Below are positions 13,303-52,685 of a DNA stretch of 64,000 nucleotides, one piece after another (the first letter of the stretch is position 1; every line of letters begins with the position of its first letter). This DNA comes from Hyphomicrobiales bacterium (lineage in GTDB: Bacteria > Pseudomonadota > Alphaproteobacteria > Rhizobiales > Rhizobiaceae), in NCBI GenBank assembly GCA_900473795.1, contig UCMT01000058.1, positions 1 to 64,000 on the forward strand. The letters are read 5' to 3'. Under the pieces are notes generated by a model that saw nothing but the letters and a program-made list of their open reading frames with translations, did no database searches and was not told where the DNA came from. The position numbers and the translations under genes were made by a program.

Positions 13303-14181
13303 TTGAGCGACCTTCGCCTGTTCATCACCACGACCGAAAAGCAGTCGGAAGTCATCATGGACCTGATGACCGAAGCGTTCGAGGATGACGGCTACGCCAT
13401 CGCCACCATGGAGATGGATGAAAAGAAGGACATCTGGGAGGCGTCGCTCTACATCGATTTCGACGAGGAAGACGAGATGCGGGTGCGCTTCGCCGAAGTC
13501 GTCGCGCCACATTTTCCGGATGCGACGATCGAGCGGGAAGTCATTCCCGATGTCGACTGGATCGCCAAGTCGCTGGAGGGCCTGTCGCCCGTGCGCGCCG
13601 GCCGTTTCCTCGTGCACGGCTCGCATGACCGCGACAAGGTGCGGGCCAACGACATCGCCATCGAGATCGATGCCGGCCAGGCGTTCGGCACCGGCCATCA
13701 CGGCACGACGGCGGGCTGCCTCGAAGTCATCGAAACCGTCATGCGCGCCCGCAAGGTCCGCAACGCGCTCGATCTCGGCACCGGCAGCGGCGTCCTGGCG
13801 ATCGCCGCGCGCAAGCTGAAGCCGGTTCCGGTGCTGGCAACCGACATCGACCCGATCGCGACGCGTGTCGCCGCCGAGAATGTGCGCCGCAACGGCATCG
13901 CCACCGGCATCGCCACCGTGACCGCCGCCGGCTTCCACTCGCCGGCCTTTGCCGCCCATGGTCCCTTCGACCTGATCATCGCCAACATCCTCGCCCGCCC
14001 GCTGATCAAGATGGCGCCGCAGCTTGCCGGCCATCTGGCGCCCGGCGGCTCGGTCATCCTGTCAGGCATTCTGGCGTCGCAACGCTGGAAGGTGCTGTCC
14101 GCCTATAATGGTCAGCATCTGCGCCATGTTCGCACCATCTGGCGCAACGGCTGGGTGACGATCCATCTCGACCGTCCCTGA
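13303..14181 (+). CDS. prmA: ribosomal protein L11 methyltransferase
   Basis: Transfers methyl groups from S-adenosylmethionine to the N terminus and lysines of ribosomal protein L11. 292 residues: an N-terminal substrate-recognition domain (about 1-100) and a Rossmann-fold methyltransferase domain with the SAM motif ALDLGTGSGVLAIAA (about 160-175) and NILARPL (about 227-233). The start is TTG at 13303, preceded by AAGGA at a good distance; no ATG in frame fits better. A bidirectional terminator lies 30 bp after the stop. Confidence 0.92.
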   Translation: MSDLRLFITTTEKQSEVIMDLMTEAFEDDGYAIATMEMDEKKDIWEASLYIDFDEEDEMRVRFAEVVAPHFPDATIEREVIPDVDWIAKSLEGLSPVRAGRFLVHGSHDRDKVRANDIAIEIDAGQAFGTGHHGTTAGCLEVIETVMRARKVRNALDLGTGSGVLAIAARKLKPVPVLATDIDPIATRVAAENVRRNGIATGIATVTAAGFHSPAFAAHGPFDLIIANILARPLIKMAPQLAGHLAPGGSVILSGILASQRWKVLSAYNGQHLRHVRTIWRNGWVTIHLDRP

Positions 14182-14210: not shown

Positions 14211-14247
14211 AAAAACCCGCCTGTCCGTCATGGACAAGCGGGTTTTT
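14211..14247. terminator. bidirectional Rho-independent terminator
   Basis: Arms AAAAACCCGC-CTGTCC and GGACA-A-GCGGGTTTTT enclose a 5-nt loop. U-runs follow on both strands, so it can end prmA on the plus strand and the candidate small RNA on the minus strand. Confidence 0.85.
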
Positions 14248-14458
14248 CAAAACAAAGGCGATGCCGAAGCACCGCCCGCTGACCGGCAAGCCGGTCATGT
14301 CCGCGAGCTTGAGGAGGAGGAGCGCTCAAGCGGACTCTTCATGATCTGAAATTGGCCACCCGGAGGGAGGAGGAGAAGGGCGACCAACCATATTCAGACC
14401 ATGCAGCTCTTGCCTTTCGGCATTCGCGTGAACAACAGATTTGCGTCCGCGTTCGTTG
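14211..14458 (-). ncRNA. candidate structured small RNA with CU-rich loops
   Basis: The minus strand shows five successive hairpins. A: 14354-14385, 8-bp stem (GGTCGCCC/GGGTGGCC) with a 16-nt loop containing CTCCTCCTCCC. B: 14299-14335, inner stem CTTGAG/CTCAAG plus outer GTCCG/CGGAC, with loop CGCTCCTCCTC. C: 14281-14296, GACCGG-CTTG-CCGGTC. D: 14257-14276, 8-bp stem with a UUCG tetraloop. E: the terminator. Loops A and B are complementary to Shine-Dalgarno sequences, a pattern known for rhizobial alpha-r14 (NfeR1-type) and related riboregulators, so trans-acting translational repression is the inferred role. The 5' end is estimated from the promoter at 14465-14493. No protein gene follows. 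Family membership cannot be assigned by eye. Confidence 0.6.
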
Positions 14459-14464
14459 AGTGGG

Positions 14465-14493
14465 TTTATAGACTATTTTTGAAACGGGTCTAG
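14465..14493 (-). promoter_or_regulatory. putative sigma-70 promoter of the small RNA
   Basis: On the minus strand CTAGAC (14493-14488) and TATAAA (14470-14465) are separated by exactly 17 nt. This resembles the housekeeping promoter (CTTGAC-N17-CTATAT) reported for rhizobial small RNAs. Transcription would begin near 14458. Confidence 0.5.
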
Positions 14494-14568: not shown

Positions 14569-15096
14569 ATGCTGGCGACAATCATACCTCTCATCGGCCT
14601 TATGCTGATCGTCTGGGTTCTCGGCGCGGCCCTCTGGTCAATGCGTGGCGGGAAAAGGCAAAGCCAGACAAAATGGCCGCCCTACCCTGTCATCAACGCC
14701 TCGGAAGAGGAGATGCAGCGCCGGCATCTCGAATGCCGCGACCGTCTCAGTCACGCGGCCTACGGCGAGGCAGCCGCGCGATCGCTGTGGCAGAAGCTGA
14801 TGACATGCGAGCCGGGCACGGGCCTTATCCACCAATTCCACCGCGACTATTGCGGACATGGCCTGATCCGCACCGGCAACACGATTACGCTGCGCGAAAT
14901 CTACGACGGCAGTGCCGGCGATCCGCTGGCGGCGTGGCAGACAGAAGCCGATTTCGTCGCCTTCTTCTCTCGCCAGTCGGATTTCAGTTGTAGCGGCTTC
15001 GACCCGGGGGAGCCGGTATTCTTCACCGACGACCGCTGGTCGCAGAACAATCAACGGCTGACATGGGAGATTATCCGGAAATTCGTCGAAAATTGA
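14569..15096 (+). CDS. hypothetical protein with N-terminal membrane helix
   Basis: 175 residues. The first 25 residues (LATIIPLIGLMLIVWVLGAA) form a membrane helix; the rest is soluble, with His/Cys-containing stretches such as FHRDYCGHGL and no fold I recognise. I chose the ATG at 14569 because a GGAGG stands 4 nt before it and the helix then begins the protein; the frame stays open to a GTG at 14494. It is convergent with the orphan gene at 15134-15580. Coding character is supported by strong GC bias at third positions. Function unknown. Confidence 0.6.
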   Translation: MLATIIPLIGLMLIVWVLGAALWSMRGGKRQSQTKWPPYPVINASEEEMQRRHLECRDRLSHAAYGEAAARSLWQKLMTCEPGTGLIHQFHRDYCGHGLIRTGNTITLREIYDGSAGDPLAAWQTEADFVAFFSRQSDFSCSGFDPGEPVFFTDDRWSQNNQRLTWEIIRKFVEN

Positions 15097-51862: not shown

Positions 51863-52289
51863 GACGCGATACTGCCGTTTCCGGTAAACGCGCAAGCCCC
51901 AACGGCCCGTGCACACCTTCAAAACAAGGCACAACACTCCACCAGCGGGCGACATGCCCGTTCGAAAACCCTCCGAAGGGAGGTCCCGAAACTTGCGGTG
52001 AATCGGCCTGAATCAGCCCGTGTATTGTGCATGATTGGGATAACATGGGACCATATGGGCGTCAATGGGATTTGCTCTATTTCAGCACGCGTCGTCAGCA
52101 AATATTGATAGTCCGTTAAGTTTAACAAATGGTTACGACAGACCCCTCAACACTTTGGATTCACTGTCGAATCACCTCCAGTAAAAATTATTAGTTTAAA
52201 TATTAGCAATATATAAAAATAGTAATCATTCAAGCGGATACGCGATTTCAGGAATCGCGATCGCCGGGATCAAGGAAAAGGAGAATTTG
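51863..52289. other. regulatory region between rnpB and mraZ
   Basis: 427 bp without a gene. It contains the four TGGGN repeats at 52036-52070 and a strikingly AT-rich section at about 52130-52240, plus a 7-bp hairpin (CGCGATT/AATCGCG) near 52242-52260 that may be the rnpB 3' end or terminator. Confidence 0.5.
52036..52070 (-). promoter_or_regulatory. MraZ operator: four TGGGN repeats
   Basis: TGGGA (52036), TGGGA (52046), TGGGC (52056) and TGGGA (52066), read on the plus strand, recur exactly every 10 bp, that is with 5-nt spacers. In E. coli MraZ binds three TGGGN repeats separated by 5 nt before its own gene. Here the array lies about 175-210 bp upstream of the mraZ start and has a fourth copy, so autorepression of the dcw operon is expected. 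Confidence 0.8.
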
Positions 52290-52685
52290 CCAGTTGGCCT
52301 ATAAGCCGGGTTCTGTATGGCTCCGGCCCGAAAGCCGGAACGTGGCAGCCATTCATCTGGGACAACGCTTGCGCGCTGCCTCCTGCAACCCACCCGGATG
52401 ACTGGCCCGGAAAAGGCCGGAGCGCTTGCGCACTCCACGTCATCCCTATTCGGTCTTGCTCCCGGTGGGGTTTGCCTTGCCACCCATGTTGCCATGCGCG
52501 CGGTGGGCTCTTACCCCACCCTTTCACCCTTACCTGCCAAAGCAGGCGGTATCCTCTCTGTGGCACTTTCCCTGGGGTCACCCCCGCCGGACGTTATCCG
52601 GCACCGTTTTTCCGTGGAGCCCGGACTTTCCTCCCCCCGCAGCCTTTCGGCCCTAGCGGAGAGCGGCTGCCCGGCCAACTGGCAG
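52290..52685 (-). ncRNA. rnpB: RNase P RNA, bacterial type A
   Basis: Catalytic RNA that matures the 5' ends of tRNAs. Read on the minus strand it has the universal 5' core (GAGGAAAGTCCGGGCTCC near 52640-52620), the AGGGTGAAAGGGTGGGGTAAG region near 52530-52510, GGCAAACCCC and the 3' core ending GAACCCGGCTTATAGGCC with P1 pairing (AGTTGGCC-type ends at both termini). Exact ends are approximate. Convergent or overlapping open frames within it are not genes. Confidence 0.95.

Follow-up and report, generated by a model that had tools for sequence, protein, structure and literature searches.

The window, by which we mean the whole 64,000-nucleotide stretch of DNA analysed, carries on its plus strand the gene prmA for the ribosomal protein L11 methyltransferase (positions 13303-14181; Pfam PF06325, 216.5 bits). 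Convergent with it, on the minus strand, lies a predicted small RNA of about 209 nt (14457-14249), both ends of which are placed from a promoter, a conserved structure and a terminator hairpin. On the far side there is a divergent plus-strand open reading frame of 175 aa (14569-15096) with a hydrophobic N-terminus; its start was picked by eye against the related locus L027, and it matches no Pfam family. Between the starts of this ORF and the small RNA is a near-palindromic box, TGCATGGCTCCCATGC (14519-14504, minus strand), which by its sequence and spacing is a putative LysR-type (LsrB/VtlR-like) site, and which could serve both.

The promoter is read on the minus strand as a -35 hexamer CTAGAC (14493-14488) and a -10 hexamer TATAAA (14470-14465). 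The arrangement CTAGAC-N17-TATAAA is the sigma-70-like promoter with 17-nt spacing that an initial annotation of this DNA had described, and it is found where that annotation put it, although a strict sigma-70 consensus scan of the locus called no promoter. The -35 hexamer varies in relatives, and TATAA is present at the -10 in all 26 loci aligned from the genus. The position of the -10 places the start site at about 14457 on the minus strand.

Downstream of this start the minus strand forms a series of hairpins. The leader contains a hairpin with the ends GAAC...GTTC (14454-14430), which folds in every one of the 22 distinct leaders that 36 chosen loci supplied; since the search pattern required the GAAC and GTTC ends, only the inner stem counts as independent evidence. 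It is followed by a small hairpin, GCC-GAAA-GGC (14423-14411), whose stem is conserved and whose tetraloop is variable across the genus, the whole hairpin being missing in L025. Hairpin A (14404-14340) presents the loop CTCCTCCTCCC (as RNA CUCCUCCUCCC) at 14375-14365, and hairpin B (14335-14299), which has a near-invariant stem, the loop CTCCTCCTCCTC (as RNA CUCCUCCUCCUC) at 14322-14311. Then come hairpin C, GACCGG-CUUG-CCGGUC (14296-14281), in which paired changes are seen in relatives, and hairpin D with a UUCG loop (14277-14256), followed by the U tract TTTGTTTT that takes the element to 14249. The initial annotation had the hairpins, the two anti-Shine-Dalgarno (anti-SD) loops and the UUCG loop all in the right positions; its list lacked the two leader hairpins. 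It is worth adding that hairpin B has an alternative pairing, CUUGAG with CUCAAG inside the loop (read by eye), so that it may switch between two forms, and that the 10-mer CTCCTCCTCC is unique within the 64 kb on both strands. A leader peptide in the RNA of the window (ATG CCG AAA GGC ...) was considered and rejected: in the genus alignment its stop is not conserved (for example in L005 and L007), the variable letters fall mostly in the tetraloop, and L025 is without the piece.

The earlier estimate of the length, about 250 nt, has to be shortened. Hairpin D scores as terminator-like in a terminator scan, and the T-rich tail behind it is kept in 29 of the 30 aligned loci, the exception being L030; the RNA is therefore probably about 209 nt long, with hairpin D probably its terminator. 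The symmetrical hairpin E beyond it (14247-14211), which can be read on both strands and lies outside the covariance model, terminates prmA and may double as a back-up for the small RNA.

Folding is strand-specific. With hairpin E included, the 253-nt minus strand gives a fold z of -7.5, a value as good being reached by none of 200 shuffles, and the plus strand gives -2.7. Without hairpin E, the 209-nt core has a z of -4.8 on the minus strand (0 of 200 shuffles) and 0.0 on the plus strand (91 of 200). As a raw value, the fold energy of the core is not unusual, being matched by 35 of 320 sampled 209-nt windows from the same 64 kb, and we take conservation, not raw fold energy, to be the decisive evidence for the predicted RNA.

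Covariation was measured over 47 pairs in 30 loci (27 distinct sequences) aligned with MAFFT, using five measures and 500 shuffles. In this set 97.5% of cells are paired and there are changes on both sides at 24 of the 47 pairs; none of the 500 shuffles reaches any of the five measures, and slid partners pair in only 32-44% of cells. A wider set of 94 matches (90 distinct) was also used, for which the alignment was fitted to the covariance model; in this model-fitted set 96.3% of cells are paired and both-side changes occur at 44 of the 47 pairs. The hairpins behave differently. In the 30-locus set all 21 pairs of hairpin A vary, 18 of them with changes on both sides, and its stems differ among genera around a constant loop. 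In hairpin B, 8 of the 10 pairs are invariant in the 27 distinct sequences, and both-side changes appear at 9 of 10 in the wider, model-fitted set of 90. For hairpin C the corresponding numbers of both-side changes are 2 of 6 and, model-fitted, 6 of 6. All 30 aligned loci share the loop cores CUCCUCC (A) and UCCUCC (B) without change. The pairing is thus conserved in relatives with compensatory changes, and conserved pairing was one of the two points on which the initial annotation had let its proposal of a structured anti-SD RNA of the alpha-r14/NfeR1 kind stand or fall; covariation, loop conservation and synteny all back that proposal.

The RNA is widespread within one family. A match at E <= 0.001 was found in all 26 genomes searched from the genus, the source genome counted, and in 31 of 101 genomes overall. 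Of 394 genomes sampled from the family, the covariance model matched 90, belonging to 23 of 109 genera, with a single match in 89 of the 90 positive genomes. Across the order it matched 7 of 297 genomes, six of them from the same family; weak scores were obtained for the seventh genome (29.1 bits) and for one of the six (29.4 bits). Each of 12 chosen genomes gave one strong match, the next best having an E of 0.005 or worse. A pattern for hairpin B found at least 119 named stretches in the GTDB set, of which 116 were kept for locus counts; the other three (from a planctomycete, Eisenbacteria and Nitriliruptoraceae) were set aside as chance, none having prmA alongside. Of the 116 named loci among the matches listed, 110 have a convergent prmA on their 3' side. 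S. meliloti, R. leguminosarum and Agrobacterium likewise have the small RNA next to prmA, and it can be tested at once in those organisms.

The position of the LysR-type box is also well kept. In 28 of the 30 aligned loci the first letter of its GCATGG lies 48 nt ahead of a -10-like hexamer. Among the matches listed, the same 48-nt spacing is seen in 61 of the 65 named loci with a box, although the -10 pattern used is permissive, and no box was found by pattern in 54 of 119 named loci; the latter include lineages with the small ORF described below, in which the box has diverged, for example to GCATAGCTCCCATG. The window has the 13-mer GCATGGCTCCCAT at -61 to -49 relative to the predicted start. 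In S. meliloti AbcR1 is under LsrB, and the LsrB site of abcR1 is described between -61 and -49, its consensus being GCAT-N3-TG-N3-T (PMC8844928). The abcR1 gene of our source genome carries ACATGGCTGTCAT in the interval from -61 to -49 counted from its Rfam start, and 10 of these 13 letters are the same as in GCATGGCTCCCAT. It counts against LsrB control that the box departs from the consensus at one of the seven defined positions in 10 of the 30 loci, the window included, and at two in the other 20. The motif given for Brucella VtlR is CAATGCAGCCATGCA, and VtlR is described as a regulator of AbcR2 and of three DUF1127 proteins (PMC12595884). From the similarities we infer LsrB/VtlR-type control of the small RNA, with LsrB binding at the box.

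In many relatives the same hairpins are preceded by a small ORF. A search of the 420 nt upstream of hairpin B with a small-ORF profile (E <= 0.01) in the 116 named loci gave a match in 72 of those listed, none being detected in 44. There was no match at the window locus nor in any of the 26 genus loci (L001-L026), and by the same profile the ORF is present in L027-L029 and absent in L030. Among the matches listed, the carriers are Agrobacterium, Neorhizobium, Pseudorhizobium, Ciceribacter, Peteryoungia and Martinezella (the R. tropici group), together with one Martelella locus and 32 of the 43 loci labelled Rhizobium; R. leguminosarum is a carrier. Those without it are Ensifer, Sinorhizobium, Shinella, Pararhizobium, Mycoplana, Xaviernesmea and Ferranicluibacter, and the other 11 loci labelled Rhizobium, including R. 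giardinii and R. herbae. One Shinella leader (L200, Shinella sp. H4-D48) has an extra hairpin-like stretch with CTCCTCCTCCC ahead of hairpin A, at the position that the small ORF takes in other lineages, as though hairpin modules had been gained.

Where frames were read the ORF is 46-58 aa long. In a sample of 40 ORFs extractable by a simple rule, pN/pS is 0.29 (129 pairs, 57-codon frames) and 0.27 (29 pairs, 46-codon frames), and the relatives' ORF is under purifying selection. It has no Pfam or NCBIfam match, DUF1127 (PF06568) included. However, comparison of its profile with six DUF1127 stretches of the source genome gave an hhalign probability of 93.4, and a separate run of the comparison scored 30.2 with a probability of 89.4, compared with 18.2 for the best of 100 column shuffles and 11.3 for the reversed profile. 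Other parts of the source genome hold eight DUF1127 matches. The 5' arm of hairpin A is made up of the final codons and stop of the ORF in L028 and, judged by eye, in the Neorhizobium locus L182; translation could thereby control whether loop A forms.

The nearest published idea for this locus is that of the cuckoo RNAs and the CIN1 arrangement. Cuckoo RNAs are described as having at least two similar consecutive hairpins with a CCUCCUCCC loop and variable stems (PMC3927594), and the CIN1 locus as CcsR-like RNAs lying behind a short DUF1127 gene (PMC10253847). Examples are ccaF1-CcsR1-4 of Rhodobacter sphaeroides and, in S. meliloti, SmelA075, SmelA099 and the two-hairpin SmelC201. Our locus resembles these in its consecutive hairpins with anti-SD loops, in the presence of other anti-SD RNAs in the same genome, and in the DUF1127-like ORF that stands ahead in 72 of 116 relatives among the matches listed. 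Hairpin A has both the variable stem and the CCUCCUCCC motif; hairpin B has a near-invariant stem, and a loop that reads CCUCCUCCU here and CCUCCUCCC in some relatives. The differences are that the motif is on only two hairpins, that loop B in the window ends in CUC, that there are the extra hairpins C and D, that the RNA is single-copy and beside prmA in most relatives, and that the ORF is absent in the source genus: as noted, a CIN1-like DUF1127 ORF in the same transcript gave no profile match at the window or the 26 genus loci. The initial annotation had suggested a possible new family; with a DUF1127-like ORF upstream of the same hairpins in many relatives, as in cuckoo/CIN1 loci, this is too strong.

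Taking these features together, we consider it likely that the locus produces a free-standing, Rho-independently terminated, trans-acting translational repressor of about 209 nt, of cuckoo type, from a CIN1-like locus (a DUF1127 gene with a cuckoo RNA) that here lacks the protein-coding part. By analogy with NfeR1, loops A (CUCCUCCUCCC) and B (CUCCUCCUCCUC) would pair with the purine-rich ribosome-binding sites of chosen mRNAs and stop initiation, thereby blocking translation. Hairpin D would end transcription, the leader hairpins and hairpin C may shape or protect the RNA, and a LysR regulator of the LsrB/VtlR kind would probably activate it from the box at about -61 to -49. In NfeR1, identical anti-SD motifs are described as adding redundantly to the inhibition of translation (PMC8844928); it counts against the analogy that loop B here ends without the final CCC of the published CCUCCUCCC motif. 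Published rhizobial anti-SD small RNAs are described as acting on nutrient uptake and nodulation.

The slow change of the hairpin B stem beside the freely changing stem of hairpin A suggests another possibility, namely that the RNA mainly binds a protein through the stem of B (a DUF1127-type protein in trans, an RNase or a ribosomal factor), as a sponge or a maturation signal, with the anti-SD loops secondary. The eight DUF1127 matches elsewhere in the genome would provide candidate partners. However, the loop cores of A and B are invariant in the 30 loci too, and in more distant members the B stem does change pairwise, so that we regard this as unlikely.

If the RNA is a translational repressor, its targets should carry complementary ribosome-binding sites. 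The pattern GGGAGGAGGA-N3-9-ATG matches only three places in the genome, against none in the reversed control; they precede a periplasmic binding protein (PF13407), a zinc-dependent dehydrogenase and a 36-codon frame. Both validated targets of NfeR1 are reported to be of the periplasmic binding protein class (PMC8844928). Because the six alpha-r14 (ar14) copies of this genome share the loop A motif, the PF13407 gene is a lead only. For loop B the genome search gave no unique target: besides itself there are one one-mismatch place and five two-mismatch places, compared with four control matches. The sole other exact copy of TGCATGGCWCCCATGC in the genome (contig C57, 6439-6454; L047) lies about 240 bases before an ORF that by eye resembles a LuxR-type regulator.

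The patchy distribution of the ORF bears on how such an RNA came about. On a PrmA tree built by a quick method from 59 of 63 loci, with ORF labels set by eye, the trait needs at least 8 changes; resolution is weak, however, and the branches with good support require just one change, so that several separate losses are at most likely. Within this tree L027, which has the ORF, clusters among loci without it. We favour loss over gain as the direction of change; in the source lineage the protein gene was apparently lost while the RNA persisted. A fuller scenario, which we put forward tentatively as falling a little short of an even chance, is that this is a Rhizobiaceae family outside Rfam 15, derived from an mRNA whose 3' end was regulatory: in several lineages independently, that mRNA would have lost its DUF1127-like ORF and become a pure small RNA, keeping the promoter, the LsrB-type box, the loops and the structure. 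Lineages with and without the ORF would provide a direct test of the role of the DUF1127-like protein for the adjoining RNA, and inform how an mRNA becomes a small RNA.

That relatives have an ORF at the same place also allows another account, in which what is left here is no regulator of its own and is instead the 3' UTR remnant of a decayed small-protein mRNA, kept for its terminator or by slow decay. A remnant should drift, and in the genus the promoter, the box, the loops and the compensatory changes are all kept; the spacing from box to -10 is kept in most of the Ensifer, Sinorhizobium and Shinella loci examined, and loci without the ORF have a leader hairpin of their own. We consider this account quite improbable.

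No Rfam 15 family is matched at its cut-off, either at the window locus or at the loci of 12 relatives (0 matches), even though the RNA is present in S. meliloti, R. leguminosarum and Agrobacterium. The best matches below cut-off are P37, SorY and sX5, with ar14 lower. Elsewhere in the window lies a class A RNase P RNA (52286-52682, minus strand, 315.3 bits).

The closest likeness in mode of action is to alpha-r14/NfeR1 (RF02344), which shares the CUCCUCCUCCC loop and probably acts in the same way; LsrB-consensus-like sequence is also found upstream of some ar14 copies in the genome, as it is here. The shared loop, together with a weak full-length alignment to ar14 (17.1 bits, E 0.53), could be taken to mean that the RNA is simply an unlisted member of that family. 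We think this very improbable, as the initial annotation did in finding no fit to that family. The score is far under the cut-off of 58.8, the locus is outside the seven ar14 matches of the genome at E <= 1 (six of them over the cut-off), hairpin C and the loop of D are without the anti-SD motif, and the genomic place is different. Alpha-r14 is described as three hairpins, each with CCUCCUCCC in an unpaired part (PMC10746234); here only A has CCUCCUCCC, B has CCUCCUCCU, and C and D have neither. Nor does the size agree, the six copies in this genome being 118-126 nt long and NfeR1 115 nt (PMC8844928), against about 209 nt for the prmA-side RNA, in which the order of hairpins also differs. It is hardly credible that the locus is a chance product, with no RNA gene at all and nothing more than a plus strand rich in purines next to a prmA terminator that works in both directions: raw fold energies like that of the core are not rare in the region, but the covariation, the strand-specific folding, the occurrence in 23 genera, the synteny and the spacing of the box all speak against it.

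The prmA-side RNA also has likenesses to other trans-acting RNAs. AbcR1 and AbcR2 (alpha-r15, RF02345) bear anti-SD sequence as well, and abcR1 has a similar box at an equal distance; they are nonetheless different RNAs, with separate genes on contig C29 of the source genome. SorY (RF02651) gives a weak match over hairpins B-D (23.5 bits, E 0.012, cut-off 111 bits), which rests partly on the terminator hairpin. A search of main texts in the open literature found no paper on a prmA-linked small RNA or on the sequence of this RNA. The locus is possibly already on record among the small RNAs of S. meliloti, perhaps as SmelC201 (two hairpins), mentioned in PMC3927594 alone among the texts searched; as an earlier listing of the place is possible, we do not call the RNA a new family. 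Three other S. meliloti RNAs were considered as counterparts and rejected: SmelC023 adjoins the DNA polymerase I gene, SmelC289 adjoins the prolyl-tRNA synthetase gene, and for SmelC549/sm4 the gene orientation differs.

The ar14 copies of the source genome deserve a note of their own. The six over the Rfam cut-off (L031-L036) are on contigs C31, C5, C18, C45 and C34. Within the 150 nt examined upstream, the LsrB consensus GCAT-N3-TG-N3-T is complete for L034 and L035, has one departure before L032 and L033, and is absent before L031 and L036; as raw upstream matches counted without a chance rate, these hint that some NfeR1-type RNAs may be under LsrB control. The copies on C5 and C18 are just 3' of DUF1127 genes, and on C31 two ar14 copies are followed by two DUF1127 genes.
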